Positions 3,537 through 44,875 of a stretch of DNA of 64,000 nucleotides are shown here, one piece after another; the stretch's first letter is position 1, and each line of letters begins with the position of its first letter. The position numbers were made by a program, and so were the translations under genes. The notes below the pieces were generated by a model that did no database searches, was not told the origin of the DNA, and was given only the letters and a program-made list of their open reading frames with translations. Location: assembly GCA_002787235.1 (NCBI GenBank), contig PCWG01000042.1:1-64000 (forward strand). The letters run 5' to 3'. The stretch is from Nitrospinae bacterium CG11_big_fil_rev_8_21_14_0_20_45_15 (GTDB lineage Bacteria; Nitrospinota; Nitrospinia; Nitrospinales; VA-1).

Positions 3537-4814
3537 ATGCCTGAAGTTTATAACTGGCAGTTGGGCCGCAAAGCAACCTACGTGTACGAAGAGAAGCATC
3601 CGAAAGAGCAGTTCACCTTCGTCTTCAACACCAATCGTTGTATTGCTTGCCAAACATGTACGATGGCGCATAAGTCCACATGGACATTCTCAAAAGGCCA
3701 GGAGTATATGTGGTGGAATAACGTAGAGACCAAACCTTACGGTGGATACCCGCAATTTTGGGATTGGAAGATCCTGAAGATGTTGGAGCAATCCAACCCG
3801 GGTCAAAACGTATGGAACGTACGTAAGACGTCAAACAAGGCGATCCACGGCGTATACGAGGGTGTAACGATTTTCGAAGCACCTGCGAAGATTGGTCTGA
3901 ATCAACAAGCAATCGGTTATGTACCGACAGACGAAGAGTGGCGTTTCCCGAACTTCGGCGAAGACACAGCGCATGGACGAGAGTTCACGCAGTCTCGCGA
4001 AGGAACGTTCGGCGGCGACAACGGCACGAAGTCGGTATTGCCCGAGCACAAAATCTGGTTTTTCTATCTCCAGAGAATCTGTAACCACTGCACGTATCCG
4101 GGCTGTTTGGCAGCTTGTCCGCGAAAAGCGATCTACAAGCGTCAAGAAGACGGAATCGTTCTGATCGATCAGAGCCGATGCCGAGGATACAAGAAGTGTG
4201 TAGAGCAATGTCCTTACAAAAAGCCGATGTTCCGTGGAACAACACGGATTTCGGAGAAATGTATCGCATGTTATCCCCGAATTGAGGGATTGGATCCGTT
4301 GACAGAAGGCGATCAAATGGAGACACGTTGTATGGCGGCTTGCGTAGGCAAGATTCGTTTGCAAGGTCTCGTGAAAATCGGAAGCAACGGAGAGTGGGCA
4401 CATGATCCAGATAATCCACAGTATTATCTGATTCGAGATCGAAAAGTAGCACTTCCCCTGTACCCGCAATTGGGAACAGAGCCGAACGGTTACTATGTGC
4501 CATCCCGACATGTGCCGCGAGCCTATTCGCAGCAGATGTTTGGTCCAGGCGTGGATCATTCGATCGATCAATACATGGTCCCGGATCGAGACCTGTTGGG
4601 CGTCTTGCAGTTGTTCCGCACGACCCAGCGTATCATCTTCAAATGGAAACGTGAGCCCGGCCCGAAAATCTTCGAGACGAACATTCACGGCAAGAAGTTT
4701 GAGATGTTTAACGACACGATCATTGGTTTCAACAGAAAAGGCAAAGAGATCATCCGCGTGACGGTTGAAGAGCCTTTCTATGTAAGACCAGAAGAGAACG
4801 TCGGCGCAATCTAA
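3537..4814 (+). CDS. nxrB: Nitrite oxidoreductase beta subunit NxrB
   Basis: Iron-sulfur electron-transfer subunit that carries electrons from NxrA towards NxrC. At 425 residues it is normal for the family. ATG at 3537 has a GGGAGGA ribosome site at 3524-3531. Cluster motifs are C35-x2-C38-x2-C41, C182-x2-C185-x4-C190-x3-C194, C215-x2-Y218-x2-C221-x3-C225, and C242-x2-C245 with C265-x3-C269. Tyr218 stands where NarH has Trp, consistent with one [3Fe-4S] cluster. In the first motif the usual fourth Cys is His45 (codon CAT). There is no signal peptide, so export would rely on the Tat signal of NxrA. The C-terminal half carries the NarH-like scaffold. Confidence 0.96.
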   Translation: MPEVYNWQLGRKATYVYEEKHPKEQFTFVFNTNRCIACQTCTMAHKSTWTFSKGQEYMWWNNVETKPYGGYPQFWDWKILKMLEQSNPGQNVWNVRKTSNKAIHGVYEGVTIFEAPAKIGLNQQAIGYVPTDEEWRFPNFGEDTAHGREFTQSREGTFGGDNGTKSVLPEHKIWFFYLQRICNHCTYPGCLAACPRKAIYKRQEDGIVLIDQSRCRGYKKCVEQCPYKKPMFRGTTRISEKCIACYPRIEGLDPLTEGDQMETRCMAACVGKIRLQGLVKIGSNGEWAHDPDNPQYYLIRDRKVALPLYPQLGTEPNGYYVPSRHVPRAYSQQMFGPGVDHSIDQYMVPDRDLLGVLQLFRTTQRIIFKWKREPGPKIFETNIHGKKFEMFNDTIIGFNRKGKEIIRVTVEEPFYVRPEENVGAI

Positions 4815-4865
4815 GGAACAACCACGGCGCTTTTGGAGCGTAAACCAAGCAATCAGGCGTTGTCT

Positions 4866-4907
4866 GTGTGGGCTAATCCCCACACCGGCACGCCCGGTTT
4901 TTGCCGG
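4866..4907 (+). other. Two adjacent hairpins between nxrB and the chaperone gene
   Basis: GTGTGGG at 4866-4872 pairs with CCCACAC at 4879-4885. CCGGCA at 4885-4890 pairs with TGCCGG at 4902-4907. The two stems share base 4885, so they may compete, and the second ends four bases before the chaperone ribosome site (GGAG, 4911-4914). There is no T-run. They could stabilise the upstream nxrAB message or lower chaperone translation. Confidence 0.5.
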
Positions 4908-4921
4908 AATGGAGATATGGA

Positions 4922-5743
4922 ATGGGAGAAGCTACTCAAGTAACGGATCAGATGCTGGCTAAGTTGGGATCAACTGGAGCATTGGGAGATCTCAAGGAAG
5001 AAAGAATTTCGCTTAATTTGTCTCGTGGTCGTATTTACGATATTCTTTCGCATGGCTTTAGTTATCCGTGGAATCGTAAGTTTTTTAGGCCCAAGTCTTT
5101 GTTGGAGCCCATGGATGTTGTTCTTGTGGCAGAAGAAAGCTGGGAATCCTTGAGGACAATTGTAGACGGGTTTTCAGAGTACTTGCCACAAATGACCATT
5201 AAGCAAGTGCAGGGCGAGTATGTAAATGTTTTTGGTCACGCAGTGTCTATGGAATGTCCTCCTTACGAGATGCAGTATGGTACTGAAGGGGGTATTCAAT
5301 CACAGACAGACGTACTGATTCAATTGGGGGGCTTTTACGAGACGTTTGGATTTGAAATGCCGAGAAATCGTTCAAAGGAGAGAGTAGATCATATCTCCAA
5401 TGAATTGGCATTTATGTCTTATATGTGTTTTCGCATGGCTTTCGGTATTCAAAACGATCATGACGAAAGAAAGATTGCCGTGTTATTCAGCGGTATGAAA
5501 AAATTCATTCGCAATCACATTGGGCGTTGGCTCCCTCTATTTTGTATCTTTGCCGCAAGAAAAGCAGAGCGAGGGTTGTATCGAGATATGGTCGAGATTC
5601 TTTCTATTTTCGTGCAAAACGAAACCGCTTTATTGGATGTTAAGCCAGTGACAGTGGAAGAGCCAGAATACCGATCCATGTCCTACAGTATGGAAAATGA
5701 CCTTGTCGCAAACGCTCCTGCAGAATGCGAACCACGTACTTAG
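4922..5743 (+). CDS. TorD/DmsD-family molybdoenzyme maturation chaperone
   Basis: About 273 residues. The protein has the family signatures CPPYEMQYG, QLGGFYETFGFEM and the DHISNELAFMSY block. Such chaperones bind the Tat signal peptide and apo-form of a molybdoenzyme until cofactor is inserted. Its place between nxrB and nxrC makes NxrA the likely client. The frame is open from a TTG at 4901, but ATG at 4922 has GGAG at 4911-4914 with a 7-base spacer and is the better start. It is longer than typical TorD proteins (about 200 residues), mostly through the N-terminal 30 residues and the C-terminal tail. The end lies 46 bases before the nxrC start. Confidence 0.88.
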   Translation: MGEATQVTDQMLAKLGSTGALGDLKEERISLNLSRGRIYDILSHGFSYPWNRKFFRPKSLLEPMDVVLVAEESWESLRTIVDGFSEYLPQMTIKQVQGEYVNVFGHAVSMECPPYEMQYGTEGGIQSQTDVLIQLGGFYETFGFEMPRNRSKERVDHISNELAFMSYMCFRMAFGIQNDHDERKIAVLFSGMKKFIRNHIGRWLPLFCIFAARKAERGLYRDMVEILSIFVQNETALLDVKPVTVEEPEYRSMSYSMENDLVANAPAECEPRT

Positions 5744-5795
5744 CTCTAAACAGATATATTTAAGTGTTTTTAACCTTGAATCCGAGGAGATGAAA

Positions 5796-6794
5796 GTGAA
5801 AAGTAAATCAAAAATTGCAGTAGCTCTGGTATGTGCTGCGGCTCTCGGCATGAGTGTTGTGGGCAATGCAAGCGCAGCAGTGATTGAAGCATTGAAAATC
5901 ACTGGCGACATCCCATCCGATCCAGGCAATGCATTTTGGTCGAACTACGGTCCGACCAAAGGCAAGCATGTAACGGTGACGATGGATCCGCAAATGATCA
6001 CGAATCCAATGTGGCCCAATCCATCCACGAAGTGGGTGAATGTTAAGGCAGCAACGAACGGCAAGCAGATCGCAGTTCGATTGGAGTGGAGCGATCCGAC
6101 ACGAAATGACATCATGGTTCGATCTCAGCAGTATAAAGATCAAGCCGCGTTGATGTTCCCCGTGAATCAAGCTGGCGAAGAGCCTCCGTTTACAATGGGC
6201 GGCGACGGCGAGCGCGTGAACATTTGGCAATGGAAAGCAACCTGGAACAAAGAGGCAGCAGGAGCTGCTGGCAACGCAGGTATGCAAGATGTTGAAGATC
6301 AATACACGAACATGGCAATGGGATCAGGCAGTTACTACATGTTTGAACCCGATGGCAAGCTTTCCGGCTTGGACACGGCCCATGAGAGTGGAACGAAGGA
6401 AGCATCTCGAGCCAATCGAGGAGCAGGTGATCTTTCCAAACGAAGCACACACGTTGACTTTGGAATGGGTAAGAACGAAGGCGTATACAATCCCGGCCGA
6501 GCAACAGGCAACATTATGTCTGATGCAAGCATGAGAGTATCCGCAGTAGAAGACCTGAACGCAGAAGGATTCAGCACCTTGACGACCCAAGCACATCAAG
6601 ACGTGCAAGGCCAAGGCACCTGGGCAAACAACCGCTGGGCGGTAGTATTTGTTCGTGATTTGAAGACCTCCGATGAAAATGATACGCAATTCACCGGTAC
6701 GAAAGCACCGATGGCAATTGCTATCTGGAATGGTCAAAACAAAGAACGAAACGGCCAGAAGGCAGTAACCCAGTGGAATGAGCTGCAATACTAA
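5796..6794 (+). CDS. nxrC: Nitrite oxidoreductase gamma subunit candidate NxrC (periplasmic heme-b type)
   Basis: This is an exported protein of the ethylbenzene-dehydrogenase gamma/NxrC type, expected to bind heme b and pass electrons from NxrB on to cytochromes. A Sec signal peptide is clear: basic KSKSK, a hydrophobic stretch, then GNASA before the cleavage site. GTG at 5796 has GAGGAG (5784-5789) at a 6-base distance. The in-frame ATG at 5790 touches that box, so GTG is preferred, although ATG is possible. VRLEWSDPTRN and the C-terminal RWAVVFVRDL and MAIAIWNGQ blocks fit the family fold. Heme ligands cannot be assigned by eye. Arginine is mostly CGA (8 of 12). A strong terminator follows, making this the last gene of the operon. 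Confidence 0.85.
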   Translation: MKSKSKIAVALVCAAALGMSVVGNASAAVIEALKITGDIPSDPGNAFWSNYGPTKGKHVTVTMDPQMITNPMWPNPSTKWVNVKAATNGKQIAVRLEWSDPTRNDIMVRSQQYKDQAALMFPVNQAGEEPPFTMGGDGERVNIWQWKATWNKEAAGAAGNAGMQDVEDQYTNMAMGSGSYYMFEPDGKLSGLDTAHESGTKEASRANRGAGDLSKRSTHVDFGMGKNEGVYNPGRATGNIMSDASMRVSAVEDLNAEGFSTLTTQAHQDVQGQGTWANNRWAVVFVRDLKTSDENDTQFTGTKAPMAIAIWNGQNKERNGQKAVTQWNELQY

Positions 6795-38732: not shown

Positions 38733-38963
38733 ATGAAAATGCAAGAAACCCTTGAGTTGGTTAAAGACGCTCAGGATGTTGTTAAAAGCCGTTATCTGCT
38801 TTGTATTTTGGTTGCACAGAGAATTCATCAACTCGAAAAAGGTGCAGAGCCGACCATTGAAGTTGACGAGACAGAATACTCATCCCCAAAAACGTTCTTT
38901 GAATTGTCATTGCGCGAAATCAATGAAGGCAATATGGATTTGGAGCAGGTGGAAGAAGCGTAA
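38733..38963 (+). CDS. rpoZ: RNA polymerase omega subunit
   Basis: 76 residues. RYLLCILVAQRIHQLEKGAEPTIE and LREINEGNMD match the conserved core of the omega subunit, which helps assemble and stabilise RNA polymerase. It starts at ATG 38733 behind AAGG and has its own promoter and terminator. Confidence 0.85.
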   Translation: MKMQETLELVKDAQDVVKSRYLLCILVAQRIHQLEKGAEPTIEVDETEYSSPKTFFELSLREINEGNMDLEQVEEA

Positions 38964-39004
38964 AGATTTCTTTCAGCTTGAATCCCATCGTTATATTGAT
39001 GCAG

Positions 39005-39028
39005 AAAGGGCTTGAAATAAGCCCTTTT
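39005..39028 (+). terminator. rpoZ terminator
   Basis: AAAGGGCTT (39005-39013) pairs with AAGCCCTTT (39019-39027) around GAAAT. The T-rich end reads TTTTCT. It lies 42 bases after the stop. Confidence 0.85.
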
Positions 39029-39190
39029 CTCCCCTGCCAAAGCTAGCACATACCTGTTTTTTAAACACAGACAGATTTGTTTCTTCAGATACTCCCCCAC
39101 CTTTTTTTTGCGGTAATACTTCTTCAATAAGTGCTAGACAAAATTAATTGGTTTTGCGACGATTCTCCCGGTCCAGGCGACGGCAGGATA

Positions 39191-39199
39191 TGCTAGAAT
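39191..39199 (+). promoter_or_regulatory. Extended -10 promoter, leaderless start for the NACHT gene
   Basis: TGCTAGAAT at 39191-39199 is an extended -10 box. The ATG is at 39209, so a start about 7 bases after the -10 gives an mRNA starting only 2-3 bases before the ATG. No ribosome site lies upstream and no -35 was found. Confidence 0.45.
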
Positions 39200-39208
39200 A
39201 CGCCTACC

Positions 39209-41590
39209 ATGGATGAATCAAACGAAAGTAAAAATCTGATATCTCGCCCTTCAATGGAGTCGCCCGTTGTTCGACCCCTTTTGGAAGAATCACAAGAATG
39301 GGTGATTGAAGTCTATCGAAGAAGATTGCAGGTTAAAATTACTGCCTGGCTGGATGCCCATTTAGGTCCGGGAAGAGGGCGAAAATCGCTCCTTCCACGT
39401 GTGCTTTTGGATGCCAATCCCGTTGCATTCAGACAAAGCCTGCAAGAGATGGTTTTCCCCACGCCTCGCGCAATCAATGAAGCTATTTGGGATTTGGGTA
39501 ATGGAAAAATTATTCTGGAATCCCCTTCTGGAACAGGAAAAACGACTTATCTGCATCGTTTGATTGAGTCATTTTTGCAAGAAGAACCGCATCCCCTTTT
39601 TCCCGTTCCGGTGTATTTCCATTTAGGTGCCCTGCCCGAAGGAGAGGGCTTTGGCCCTTTATTTGAAGAAATTTTTAAGAGCATTCGAGACATCGTCTTG
39701 TCTGAAGTTGAGGACGACCCCAGTCTGGATTTGGATGAAGCGATCCTTTTGGAAACCATTCGCTCATTAGGACGGCAAAGTAAGCTGATGTTGGCGTTGG
39801 ATGGTTTGGACCAGCTTCAATCGGAGGATCGCTTCAGAATTTATTTTGAGACATTTGTTGAAGATCAATCCTACCGAAGTAATTTTGTGATCGTTACCGC
39901 ACGCAGGCTGGATCTGGGTGCTTTGGCTACCGATTCCATTGTGCAAAGAGGAAAAGACGGTGGCTTTCAGGTTACATTTCAACCCTTGGAAGAGGGGGAC
40001 TGGAGTGCATTTGTTGGCGAACACGCTGTCAAGAATAAAAATTTACCGGCTCTTGCCAATTATTCGCCGGAATTTCTGGGAACTCCCCTGATTTTGAAAA
40101 TGATCAAAGATTTGGGAGAAGAAATTGTCGATGTAGAAACCCGGGGGCAAGTTTACCGTAAGTGGAACGATCTTCAGCGCACTGTGGACAACGAAAGCTC
40201 AAGCGACCATGAGTTTCAGCAATTGAAAGAAGTGGCCTACGAACAAGCCATTGCCTGCGAGTTTCAACGCTATGAAGAAGGGGAGTCGGGTTACCGTAGA
40301 GCGGACTCCAGACTGCCTGCAATAGTCAATAAAGAAGTGCAGTGCTCTGACTATCTGAGAGCCTTCCTGCACCAGACGCCTTACCGTTGGGAATATCGTC
40401 ACCCCTCTTTTCAAGAATATTTTTCGGCATTGCAACTTGCGGATGACCCAGAATGGCAGAAGATCGTTCGCGAACGATGTCGAGATTTTAAATGGGAAGA
40501 GACGATCAAATTTTTAGCAGGGATGGTTCCCGCGAACGAATTGTTCGATATTCTTTTGGAAGAAGGCGCGATTTTTCTTGCCGGAAATTCCATTCGTGAG
40601 GCTCCTGAACTGAGCGAAGACCGGGCACTGCTCATCGGTCAATTATTGAAATACCAATGCAAAGAAGAATTTCCGCAATTTACCAAGTGCCGTTTGATTT
40701 CGGTAGAGAATGTTTTGGAAAAACACGATCCCTCTGCATTGAAGACATTGACCCAGCGATTGCTCAAACGCGAGCATCGTGACAGCCGGATTTTATATGC
40801 CGTCATCGAGCTCTTACTGGCACTGCATAAAATGGACTGGCTTGAAATCGTAGATAGCCAGAATTTCGCAAAACTCAAAACCATTCCAGAAATGGCAGAG
40901 TTTCTTTCCGAATGCACCCAGTCGCAAAATGTCGATGCAAAAGTTATTCGTCGCTGGGCGGAGATGGTCACCATCCCCGAAGGGAAGTTCATTTATCAGG
41001 ACGAGAAAGATCCGGAAGACCAGATTCATTTGAGCGAATATTCCATAATGAAATTTCCCGTTACCAACGCACTGTACAAGGAATTTGATCCCAACAGTCG
41101 ACTGCGATTCCCAAAATATTCTTATGAGCCCGATCAACCCGTCATCGGAGTCAATTATTATGAGTCCGTTGTTTTTGCACTTTGGTCGGGAAAACGACTG
41201 CCTCTGGAGCTGGAATGGGAGAAAGCCGCCCGTGGGGTAGATGGCCGGGATTACCCTTGGGGAGAAGCCGGGGGCTATCAGACGGGTTATACGAACACTT
41301 GTGATTTTACCGTTGGGCACACCACTTCGGCGACAGAATTTGAGCGTGGGATATCTCCTTATGGTTGTTATGATATGTCTGGAAATGTTTGGGAATGGTG
41401 TGCACAAAGAGGGTCTTCCCGCCACACGACCCAAAAAACGGTGCGCGGTGGTTCCTGGTTTAATTATATGGTTTATTCCAAGTGTACTTTCAGGAATACC
41501 TTCAGTCCGGAAGAACGCCATCTGTCTGTGGGTTTTCGTTGTGTTTCCCAGCCACAGACAGAAATAGACGAAGGCGATGAAGATGAATAG
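39209..41590 (+). CDS. NACHT (STAND) NTPase with C-terminal FGE/C-type-lectin-like sensor domain
   Basis: 793 residues. The NTPase has Walker A SGTGKTTYLH (K111), Walker B LMLALDGLD (D198, D201) and a NACHT-type winged-helix end YRHPSFQEYFSALQLAD (H398). A helical linker (about 430-585) follows, then an FGE-sulfatase/SUMF1-type lectin fold: MVTIPEGKFIY, PVTNALYKEF, RLPLELEWEKAARG, GNVWEWC and a C-terminal RGGSWFN...GFRC. The end aligns without gaps to the variable surface of C-type-lectin proteins diversified by retroelements; active-site Cys of true FGE are not matched. No signal peptide, so cytoplasmic. It probably senses a ligand by the lectin end, as in conflict systems (inference). It is alone, with rpoZ before and a REC protein after. 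Confidence 0.85.
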   Translation: MDESNESKNLISRPSMESPVVRPLLEESQEWVIEVYRRRLQVKITAWLDAHLGPGRGRKSLLPRVLLDANPVAFRQSLQEMVFPTPRAINEAIWDLGNGKIILESPSGTGKTTYLHRLIESFLQEEPHPLFPVPVYFHLGALPEGEGFGPLFEEIFKSIRDIVLSEVEDDPSLDLDEAILLETIRSLGRQSKLMLALDGLDQLQSEDRFRIYFETFVEDQSYRSNFVIVTARRLDLGALATDSIVQRGKDGGFQVTFQPLEEGDWSAFVGEHAVKNKNLPALANYSPEFLGTPLILKMIKDLGEEIVDVETRGQVYRKWNDLQRTVDNESSSDHEFQQLKEVAYEQAIACEFQRYEEGESGYRRADSRLPAIVNKEVQCSDYLRAFLHQTPYRWEYRHPSFQEYFSALQLADDPEWQKIVRERCRDFKWEETIKFLAGMVPANELFDILLEEGAIFLAGNSIREAPELSEDRALLIGQLLKYQCKEEFPQFTKCRLISVENVLEKHDPSALKTLTQRLLKREHRDSRILYAVIELLLALHKMDWLEIVDSQNFAKLKTIPEMAEFLSECTQSQNVDAKVIRRWAEMVTIPEGKFIYQDEKDPEDQIHLSEYSIMKFPVTNALYKEFDPNSRLRFPKYSYEPDQPVIGVNYYESVVFALWSGKRLPLELEWEKAARGVDGRDYPWGEAGGYQTGYTNTCDFTVGHTTSATEFERGISPYGCYDMSGNVWEWCAQRGSSRHTTQKTVRGGSWFNYMVYSKCTFRNTFSPEERHLSVGFRCVSQPQTEIDEGDEDE

Positions 41591-41795: not shown

Positions 41796-43142
41796 TTGGA
41801 CATCGCTAAAAACGCAAAAAAATTTCTTTGTATTGACGATGATCGAACGCTTCAATTGATCGTCAAACAAATATTGAACAAAGCTTTCGGCCCCCAGATA
41901 CTGGAATGCTACCAAGCCGTAACGGGTGAGGAAGGGATTGCGATGATTCAGGACATCTTGCCGGATATCATTCTTTGTGATATCCAAATGCCAGGAATCG
42001 ATGGATTCGAAGTTTGCAAAAAAATTCGGCAGATACAACCTCATTGCGCGGTAATTTTGATGTCGGCATACGATGCCGAAAGTGACAATGCCATCAAAGC
42101 CAGTGAAGTCGGTGCCGATGCCTACCTGTCAAAGCCATTAAAAAAGGGAGAATTGCTGTTCATTACCAATTTTGTAATGCGCGTTGCTCATCTGAACGAC
42201 GCGCTTTACGAGAAAAATTGTCAAATGGAGCATTCTCTGGATCAGCTCAAGAAATTCCATCAAAAACTGGCCACTCTGAATGATGAATTGATTTCCGACA
42301 AGCGCAGGTTGGGTGCCAGCCTCAGAGACATGACGGAATTGAACAAACAGATGGAAGAAAAAAATGCGCAAATTTCTTCGATGGTAGATGAGCTGGCGGA
42401 TCGATCCGAGTCTACAGTGGGTTTATTGGCGAGTATTATTGAACTCAACCAATCGGGGCATCGGGGTCATTCCGAGAGAGTAGCAAATTCGTCGGGGTAT
42501 ATTGCCGAGAAGATGGGATTGACCGATTACCAAATTCGCAACATCAAAACCGCCGCAAGATTGCACGAATTGGGCATCGTCGCGCTTCCCTCAGTGGAAA
42601 AAAAAGAGGAAGCGGCAGACGAAGCAAAAGGCCGAATTTTTTCCAATCATCCACTGGTAGGGGAAATGCTGCTGAAAGGATTTCCTGGATTTGAACTGAT
42701 AGCAGACATCATACGTCATTTGCATGAAAATGTAGACGGCTCCGGCTCTCCCGATGGTTTGTATGGAGACAGAATCCCTGTAGGAGCGCGAATTATTTCC
42801 GCCGCAAGTTATTACGATCACGTCAATGTGAGTAATCCCGAACTGTCTCCAGCGCAAGTATTGGAGAAGATGGAACAGAAAGCCGGGATTATTTTTGATG
42901 AAACAGCCTTGGCGCATCTCAGTCAATATGCTCTTTCTCAGGACGATTCGGGTGAAGAAAAGACTTTGGATTGCACCGTATTCACCCTCGCGGATGGGAT
43001 GGAACTTGCTTCAGATATTTTCTCAAAATCAGGGATCAATTTGCTTCGCAAGGGAACGATTGTAAATTCAGAAATTTTGACCAAACTTTTAAAGTTTCAC
43101 AATGTAGACCCGATCGCAGGGACCATTAAAGTCAAACAATAG
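41796..43142 (+). CDS. Response regulator with degenerate HD-GYP output domain
   Basis: 448 residues. REC domain (about 9-125) with DDD acidic cluster and phospho-acceptor D62 in ILCDIQMPG, followed by a coiled coil (about 140-205) and an HD-GYP domain. Key changes are seen: the HD pair is HE (H257-E258, RLHELG), and GYP reads GSP in HENVDGSGSPDGL; the RGHSERVA helix is kept. Normal HD-GYP proteins degrade cyclic-di-GMP. This one may be inactive or altered. Its start is TTG at 41796 with GAGGAG at 41781-41786. No kinase is adjacent. Confidence 0.85.
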   Translation: MDIAKNAKKFLCIDDDRTLQLIVKQILNKAFGPQILECYQAVTGEEGIAMIQDILPDIILCDIQMPGIDGFEVCKKIRQIQPHCAVILMSAYDAESDNAIKASEVGADAYLSKPLKKGELLFITNFVMRVAHLNDALYEKNCQMEHSLDQLKKFHQKLATLNDELISDKRRLGASLRDMTELNKQMEEKNAQISSMVDELADRSESTVGLLASIIELNQSGHRGHSERVANSSGYIAEKMGLTDYQIRNIKTAARLHELGIVALPSVEKKEEAADEAKGRIFSNHPLVGEMLLKGFPGFELIADIIRHLHENVDGSGSPDGLYGDRIPVGARIISAASYYDHVNVSNPELSPAQVLEKMEQKAGIIFDETALAHLSQYALSQDDSGEEKTLDCTVFTLADGMELASDIFSKSGINLLRKGTIVNSEILTKLLKFHNVDPIAGTIKVKQ

Positions 43143-43247: not shown

Positions 43248-44060
43248 ATGGATTTAGCAACACTTATAGGAATTATTTCAGGTATCGGACTGGTTATCGG
43301 TTCGATCCTGATGAATAGCGGCCTGGATCTCTTTTGGTCTGCACCCTCTGCGGCAATCGTTATCGGGGGCACCGGAGCGGCTATTATGATTGCCTTCCCC
43401 TTACAGGAAATTCTTCGAGTTATCGCCTTGGCGACCCGCGTTTTCAGGATGAAAAAATCAGACAACTATCAGTTGATCGAAATGATGGTTTCTATCTGTA
43501 ACGTGGCCAGAAAAGGCGGAGTGTTGGCCATCGAGTCCAAATTGAAAGAAGTGGATAACGAATTTTTGAAAAAAGGTTTGGAACTGACGGTAGATGGTAA
43601 GGACGAAGCGACTGTAAATGCCCTGTTAAAAAGAGAAATCAAACAAATTCTGAAATCACATAAAGATGGTTGGGAGATCTTCAATCAGGCCGGGGCTTTC
43701 GCACCCGCATTCGGTATGATCGGTACCCTGATCGGTCTGATTCAGATGTTATCCGATCTTGCTGACGTTGGTTCCGTTGGACCCAAAATGGCTATCGCCC
43801 TGATCACCACATTTTACGGCGCGGTCATGGCGAATCTTTTCTTCATCCCGATGACTGTAAAGTTGAAAAGACGAAGTGCCTCCGATACTTTGGAAATGAA
43901 CCTGGTGCTTGAAGGCATCAGTTATATTCGAAAAGGCGTGAATCCCCGATTCATGCAAGAAATTTTGGAAAATTATATCGATTCTGCAGTAGGAAAAACT
44001 GAGAAGAAAGACGAAAAGGGTGACGGCGAAAAGAAACCCGCCAAAGGTAAGAAGAAATAA
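43248..44060 (+). CDS. motA: Flagellar motor stator protein MotA
   Basis: 270 residues. Four membrane segments: two near the N-terminus (TLIGIISGIGLVIGSILM, AAIVIGGTGAAIMIAFPL) and two at about 145-200 (FGMIGTLIGLIQML, MAIALITTFYGAVMANLFFIP). The cytoplasmic middle part and a basic tail fit MotA. It makes the ion channel with MotB. AGG lies just before the ATG. motB follows by 2 bases. Confidence 0.96.
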   Translation: MDLATLIGIISGIGLVIGSILMNSGLDLFWSAPSAAIVIGGTGAAIMIAFPLQEILRVIALATRVFRMKKSDNYQLIEMMVSICNVARKGGVLAIESKLKEVDNEFLKKGLELTVDGKDEATVNALLKREIKQILKSHKDGWEIFNQAGAFAPAFGMIGTLIGLIQMLSDLADVGSVGPKMAIALITTFYGAVMANLFFIPMTVKLKRRSASDTLEMNLVLEGISYIRKGVNPRFMQEILENYIDSAVGKTEKKDEKGDGEKKPAKGKKK

Positions 44061-44062
44061 TC

Positions 44063-44875
44063 ATGGCTGAAGCTAAAGGACAAAAAGAGCCTCCTCCAGA
44101 AGAAGAAGAGGATGAAGAAGAGGAGCCGGATGAAGTAACCGAAGGTGCCCCTATGTGGATGGCGACGTTCGCCGACCTCGTTACACTTCTGATGGTTTTT
44201 TTCATTCTTCTATTTGCTATGGGAACGATTGAGGAACAAAAATGGAAACTCATCAAGGAATCCCTCAAAGACGCATTGGGGCAGGATGAGGTTCCCAAGG
44301 CCGGTACTCGCGAAGGACTGGATGTTCTGAAAGAAGCGGTGCTTGAAGAAAAAACCATTCACGCTGTCGATGAAGTCGGTGCAATGGTGGCCAAAGAGGT
44401 TTCTGACATCGCTTCCGAAGTTGAAGAATTTGTTTATAAGAACAAACTGGCCGGTCAGGTAGAAGTTTCCTCCGACGAGCGAGGCGCGATCATTACCCTT
44501 TCCGATACCGTTTTGTTCCCAGCCGGAAAAGCGCGTATGACTTTTACCGGATCAGAAATCATCAAAGAAGTTTTCAGTCTTCTGAAACAATTTGATTACG
44601 ACGTTAAAATTGAAGGACACACCGATAATATAGCGATCAGTACCGCACAGTTTCCTTCCAACTGGGAGCTTTCCGCAGGTCGTGCGGCAGATGTTGCACG
44701 TATGTTGGTGCAAGCCGGTTTCCCTCCTGAAAAATTATCCATCGAAGGTTTTGCCCAATACCGTCCTAAAGTTCCCAACGACAGTGTGAAAAATCGGGGG
44801 ATCAACCGGCGGATTGAGATCGTTTACCAGCGTGGCAGTATCCGCAAAAAAATGGTGGACGTGTTGCGAAGATAG
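44063..44875 (+). CDS. motB: Flagellar motor stator protein MotB
   Basis: 270 residues. An acidic start leads into a single membrane helix MATFADLVTLLMVFFILLFAM, in which Asp38 is the conserved proton-binding residue. The C-terminal OmpA/MotB peptidoglycan domain has GHTDNIAISTAQFPSNWELSAGRA and NRRIEIVYQR. It anchors the stator. It is directly downstream of motA, while fliLMN is on the opposite strand 10 kb away. Confidence 0.96.
   Translation: MAEAKGQKEPPPEEEEDEEEEPDEVTEGAPMWMATFADLVTLLMVFFILLFAMGTIEEQKWKLIKESLKDALGQDEVPKAGTREGLDVLKEAVLEEKTIHAVDEVGAMVAKEVSDIASEVEEFVYKNKLAGQVEVSSDERGAIITLSDTVLFPAGKARMTFTGSEIIKEVFSLLKQFDYDVKIEGHTDNIAISTAQFPSNWELSAGRAADVARMLVQAGFPPEKLSIEGFAQYRPKVPNDSVKNRGINRRIEIVYQRGSIRKKMVDVLRR

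Follow-up and report, generated by a model that had tools for sequence, protein, structure and literature searches.

A single-copy, vertically inherited NACHT-FGE gene with a conserved lectin-type C-terminus in the order Nitrospinales

The analysis of a 64,000-nucleotide stretch of the genome of Nitrospinae bacterium CG11_big_fil_rev_8_21_14_0_20_45_15 (contig PCWG01000042.1, positions 1 to 64,000; hereafter, the window) established that the coding sequence at 39209..41590 on the forward strand, which encodes a 793-residue NACHT-FGE protein and has 52 intact orthologues, is a single-copy, vertically inherited and syntenic core gene of the order Nitrospinales. The GGSW...GFRC stretch that closes its FGE domain, once proposed as a variable surface, is more conserved across the 52 orthologues than any other part of the protein and is under strong purifying selection. 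We judge it reasonably likely that the protein is an NLR-like ATP switch of this order that couples a lectin-type sensor for a fixed ligand to signaling via a partner.

Distribution, domain architecture and proposed function

Homology searches with residues 1-577 of the protein identified the gene in 57 of the 77 Nitrospinota genomes, all of them among the 64 Nitrospinales genomes, and returned no NACHT-FGE gene in 13 Nitrospinota genomes of other families. Completeness of 90% or more and contamination of 5% or less apply to 28 genomes of the order, all of which carry the gene. The order genomes lacking it are MAGs with completeness values between 57 and 84%, and in two of these a 65% identical FGE fragment lies at the end of a contig. 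Each genome harbors one copy, in one case split across two contigs, and nearly all order-wide NACHT matches (≤1e-6) correspond to this gene, with three other NACHT proteins detected in the 64 genomes. The source assembly (3.37 Mb, 97.5% complete) encodes a single NACHT and 23 FGE domains; it also contains a fusion of a caspase (Peptidase_C14) with FGE (L119 2309-4162; G000:C15, near 120.8 kb). The reading frame is open in each of the 52 orthologues and, except for one interrupted by an assembly gap, essentially full length. In their tree every genus is resolved, the 14 genus labels requiring 13 changes, the smallest number possible, and the two larger families (f1 and f2) are likewise recovered. 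The N-terminal and NACHT part has no relatives among the plasmid and phage collections searched, and matches on viral contigs are mainly to the FGE domain. Distribution, tree and synteny rule out a mobile or accessory defence gene.

The protein combines a NACHT NTPase domain (residues 101-234; 39509..39910, forward strand; PF05729, E 2.1e-7) with a C-terminal FGE/SUMF1-like domain of C-type-lectin fold (residues 584-779; 40958..41545, forward strand; PF03781, E 7.5e-39). Both matches exceed the curated Pfam cut-offs (31.4 bits against 26.7 for NACHT) and both families are matched by all 30 aligned orthologues, confirming the architecture that had been read from the sequence alone. Within the NACHT domain, Walker A (G108-x-G110-K111-T112; 39530..39544, forward strand) retains both glycines and the lysine in 52/52 orthologues, with T or S at position 112, and Walker B (39791..39811, forward strand) retains D198 in 52/52, with D201 present in 51 and replaced by E in one. 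Given intact Walker residues throughout the 52 sequences, ATP binding and hydrolysis by the NACHT module are likely. Further downstream lies an RHPSFQEYF motif (residues 397-405; 40397..40423, forward strand; Q402 in 52/52, E403 in 51/52), which we take to be characteristic of the winged helix in NACHT modules. A profile built on the 30 orthologues matches NLRC4 (8fvu, 8fw2, 8fw9) over positions 185-418 (E 4e-6), and its C-terminal part matches SUMF2, CalU17 and FGE. The winged-helix part and the RHPSFQEY motif thus mark the module, as judged by sequence comparison, as NLR-like; it shares the NACHT and winged-helix part with NLRC4, but the protein has neither a CARD nor leucine-rich repeats. 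Region 261-415 evolves faster, with approximately 40% identity between genera.

No Pfam, NCBIfam or PADLOC family matches the region N-terminal of residue 98 in the protein or its orthologues, and the searches revealed no recognizable effector domain. The pre-NACHT segment (residues 26-95; 39284..39493, forward strand) comprises one long helix, predicted by a low-confidence AF2 model only, and a conserved linker (W31, LLD..NP..RQS) evident in the alignment. AF2 was run on the full protein and on residues 403-793, with 6 and 5 sequences respectively, and yielded low-confidence models (mean pLDDT of 43 for NACHT and 53 for FGE). In the partial model, the region linking the two domains (residues 416-583; 40454..40957, forward strand) is predicted to be all-helical, with short, repeat-like helical hairpins and a pLDDT mostly of 70-88; Foldseek searches with the AF2 model that includes it returned nothing significant. 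The protein ends in a short acidic tail (41561..41587, forward strand), in which a nearly invariant E785 is followed by a D/E-rich sequence in nearly all orthologues.

By analogy with STAND NTPases, the NACHT/winged-helix module would hold ADP in the resting state, as a closed monomer, and the C-terminal FGE-fold domain would serve as a non-catalytic, lectin-type domain binding one fixed ligand, candidates for which are a conserved component of the cell or its envelope and a non-varying product of stress or invasion. Ligand binding would open the module, ATP would be loaded and the protein would oligomerize. The oligomer may then recruit a partner via the conserved pre-NACHT segment, the helical region or the acidic tail and, since no effector domain is recognizable, it would act through that recruited partner. 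The status of the gene as a single-copy, vertically inherited core gene whose sensor is its most conserved part points to a constant ligand and to a cellular or stress-surveillance role, and we infer that the gene more probably serves regulation or stress surveillance than an arms-race conflict. The fuller reading of the protein as a fixed housekeeping receptor of an order, in which a NACHT-lectin protein senses a constant self-derived or envelope ligand and acts through a recruited partner in a non-immune role, is put forward tentatively, at a little short of even chances.

A resident anti-phage NLR, vertically kept as a core innate immune gene, constitutes an alternative that we regard as less likely but plausible. 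Under this alternative, the FGE domain would recognize a conserved phage feature, and the NACHT module would oligomerize and, through a recruited host factor, bring about dormancy or death. The NACHT module is the same as in bNACHT/Avs proteins, fusions of STAND and FGS domains have been proposed as conflict systems and immune sensors (PMC8195603), and 4 of the 30 orthologues show weak NCBIfam similarity to DS8_antiphage (best E 1.4e-4). The defence proteins described in PADLOC gave marginal matches only, in one or two members. Moreover, bNACHT clade 14 (bNACHT02/12), like the Nitrospinales protein, lacks a discernible effector domain and has an established function in phage defence (PMC12169576), which makes a conserved immune receptor conceivable here; clade 14 proteins, however, carry a short SNaCT C-terminal domain in place of a helical region and an FGE domain, and differ from the Nitrospinales protein in its inheritance as a core gene. 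Against an anti-phage role, the gene is single-copy and syntenic among housekeeping neighbors, its sensor is the most conserved part, the plasmid and phage collections searched do not contain it and other NACHT proteins are rare in the order. The sequence-only reading had classed the gene as a candidate conflict gene. Its membership in a fusion class known from conflict-system surveys holds, as STAND-NTPase-FGS proteins are described there (PMC8195603), but its role in conflict is weakened by single-copy, vertical and syntenic inheritance across the order.

Genomic context and its bearing on motility

The gene occupies a fixed locus. Upstream, a divergent rhomboid-protease gene is found in 43 of the 49 loci with enough sequence, followed in most by cinA. 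Downstream, a response regulator with an HD-GYP domain is directly next in 39/52 loci and within two genes in 41/52, and is usually followed by motA, motB and ribD. In the window, the response regulator, with its HD-GYP-type domain, is located at 41796..43142 and motA and motB at 43248..44875, all on the forward strand. The upstream position is taken by a gene for an RNA polymerase omega (Rpb6-like) subunit (38733..38963, forward strand; PF01192, E 2.7e-8). The window's genus, which has lost the rhomboid neighbor, is represented by three genomes, and two of them show this arrangement. All three lack the rhomboid gene at the locus (38964-39208 in the window, and orthologous loci). The rhomboid was rejected as an obligatory partner because, in spite of its prevalence as a divergent neighbor, no rhomboid domain was detected anywhere in the window's own genome.

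The recurrent downstream arrangement could reflect a regulator tied to motility or cyclic-di-GMP signaling, with which the HD-GYP response regulator and MotAB would make up a functional unit, but we deem this improbable. The NACHT-FGE gene stays at the locus after loss of the response regulator, motA and motB; it is kept in four genomes in which MotA was not found (G007, G015, G009, G006), in one of which (G015) FliM was not found either; and the distance to the following gene is usually 150-560 bp. Retention of the gene in genomes without motility genes, or without the rhomboid, indicates that it depends on neither neighbor. Loss or decay of the response regulator, motA and motB downstream was observed at loci L072, L075, L077, L084, L087, L090, L116 and L118, and some of the lineages concerned retain FliM.

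Inspection of the start region (39190-39211) revealed an extended -10-like sequence, TGcTAGAAT, that ends 9 bases 5' of the ATG, and no Shine-Dalgarno motif. Most orthologues likewise have no such motif, which is present in 4/52, and no -10-like box common to the orthologues could be demonstrated. The -10-like box and the missing Shine-Dalgarno motif make a leaderless transcript possible.

The FGE domain, its conserved terminus and the retroelements of the order

The positions of the catalytic cysteines of FGE were taken from the human enzyme. The first of them is occupied by N752 in 51/51 sequences, in line with the sequence-only reading, which had seen no FGE-like active cysteine. C759 is invariant but, in an ungapped comparison, falls 7 rather than 5 residues after the first position, two too far. 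The FGE domain therefore probably lacks the two-cysteine RGGS(Y/W)xC....C catalytic set and, with it, FGE catalysis. The nearest solved sequences are CalU17 and SUMF2, a non-catalytic FGE paralogue, and such relatives fit a binding domain. SUMF2 (1y4j) and CalU17 (7ml6, 6vqp) share the FGE fold and the RGGSW/RGASW...GFRC segment with the Nitrospinales domain, but they are stand-alone proteins, unfused to an NTPase. The possibility that the NACHT module gates a formylglycine-generating or EgtB-like enzyme activity of the domain draws on the strong family match, on invariant C759 and C778 and on NCBIfam similarity to EgtB/SenA that lies far below the cut-offs; with N752 at the first catalytic position, SUMF2 and CalU17 as the nearest solved relatives and no iron-binding partner domain of the EgtB type, we consider it very unlikely.

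Conservation within the protein peaks in the GGSW...GFRC stretch (residues 747-779; 41447..41545, forward strand). Its mean column entropy of 0.60 bits is the lowest in the protein, compared with 0.80 for the FGE domain overall and 1.29-1.90 for the non-FGE regions, and in the 12 closest pairs dN/dS is 0-0.12 for the stretch and 0.05-0.32 for the whole protein. RGG, W750, N752, Y753, K758, C759, R762, N763, F765, P767, R777 and C778 are fixed in all covering sequences, and the between-species comparison revealed no hypervariable codons. The richness in F, Y and N that had suggested a variable surface is therefore present, but the variability is not: N752, Y753, N763 and F765 are fixed in the 51 sequences that cover these positions. 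Identity between genera amounts to 72% for the FGE domain, close to the value for MotB (73%) and higher than that for RibD (55%).

No reverse transcriptase (RVT_1) was detected in the 97.5% complete assembly, whereas control genomes were positive, and the DNA encoding the C-terminus has no template-like second copy there, the next best match spanning 20 bp. The sequence-only reading had reported neither element in the window, and the same holds for the whole assembly. Reverse transcriptases occur in 9 of the 64 order genomes, with a DGR-like motif in three of them (G008, G027 and G033), the reverse transcriptase loci of which show no match beyond approximately 22 bp to the 3' end of the NACHT-FGE gene.

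Genuine diversity-generating retroelements were identified in two of these relatives. In G008 (contig C47; locus L148, 4340-7083), a reverse transcriptase with a GNLTSQ motif (4463-5830, reverse strand) is adjacent to a template (4340-4451). The variable repeat at 5986-6100, in which 20 of 21 substitutions fall at template A, encodes the GGSW...GFRC terminus of a free-standing FGE protein. This is the same C-terminal FGE segment that had been aligned to retroelement-varied surfaces in the NACHT-FGE protein, so the positional match holds. In G027 (contig C5; locus L147, 151-1893), a second retroelement of the family comprises a variable repeat at the contig edge (151-274), a reverse transcriptase (686-1747) and a template (1770-1893), and 19 of the 20 substitutions fall at template A. 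In both genomes, the template locus shows no match to the resident NACHT-FGE gene. These elements serve as a positive control for detection, and they diversify other FGE proteins; the suspected mechanism therefore exists in the family but acts on other genes. A third reverse transcriptase, fragmentary but bearing the GNLTSQ motif, lies amid runs of N at locus L149 (G033:C212); no repeat pair was found for it. Fusions of a KAP NTPase with FGE, with dissimilar GGSW...GFRC ends, are present in deep-branching Nitrospinales (L124 2799-4823 in G038; L125 327-2375 in G043), and the G038 fusion has a reverse transcriptase on its contig at a distance of approximately 6 kb (C20:85941).

Together, the missing reverse transcriptase and template, the surface invariant across the order and the lack of a match to the template loci of relatives rule out, at the species level and as far as sequence comparison reaches, the gene as a retroelement target and, with it, the retroelement-linked variable sensor suspected in the earlier reading. 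That the gene is the target of a classical or orphan element, with its lectin surface varying as an antigen sensor as in Thiohalocapsa PB-PSB1, is thus extremely unlikely, even though its architecture and the position of its GGSW...GFRC stretch match known targets (PMC10907252) and retroelements with A-specific substitution operate in two genomes of the family.

Relation to known NTPase-FGE systems and significance

The closest described proteins are the STAND NTPase-FGS proteins of a bDLD/TRADD-N survey, proposed as conflict systems and including some from nitrospinae (PMC8195603), which is the only source in the literature searched where Nitrospina and NACHT appear together. They share with the Nitrospinales protein a central STAND NTPase, NACHT among others, and a C-terminal FGS/FGE domain, but many of them have a bDLD3/EAD or an effector at the N-terminus, genomes encode several such proteins, and an association with retroelements is frequent (PMC8195603). 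The Nitrospinales gene, by contrast, is a single-copy core gene with an invariant sensor and no retroelement in its own genome, and no effector or adaptor was recognized in it with Pfam, NCBIfam or PADLOC. Multiple copies and an adjoining effector partner gene, both frequent in STAND-FGS fusions, were not found, the genome encoding one NACHT and the neighbors being housekeeping genes. Similarly, the retroelement-diversified NACHT-CLec sensors of Thiohalocapsa PB-PSB1 resemble it in joining NACHT to a C-terminal lectin-type/FGE domain, in some cases behind an uncharacterized N-terminus (PMC10907252), but differ in that here there is neither template nor reverse transcriptase and the C-terminal stretch is under the strongest purifying selection. 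The STAND-NTPase-FGE class was thus already known (PMC8195603), and what is new is a member that is vertically fixed, syntenic and invariant and has no recognizable effector.

NACHT proteins of bacteria, like NTPase-FGE fusions, tend to be treated as patchy, diversifying immune receptors, and the Nitrospinales gene provides a counter-example. It also cautions against reading a GGSW...GFRC terminus without a template as a retroelement target. The order that harbors it comprises important marine nitrite oxidizers and their relatives, and the sensor is the slowest-evolving part of the protein, which turns the fixed ligand watched by an NLR-like switch in Nitrospina into a tractable question. If the housekeeping reading is true, a bacterial NACHT-lectin receptor would have a non-immune role.
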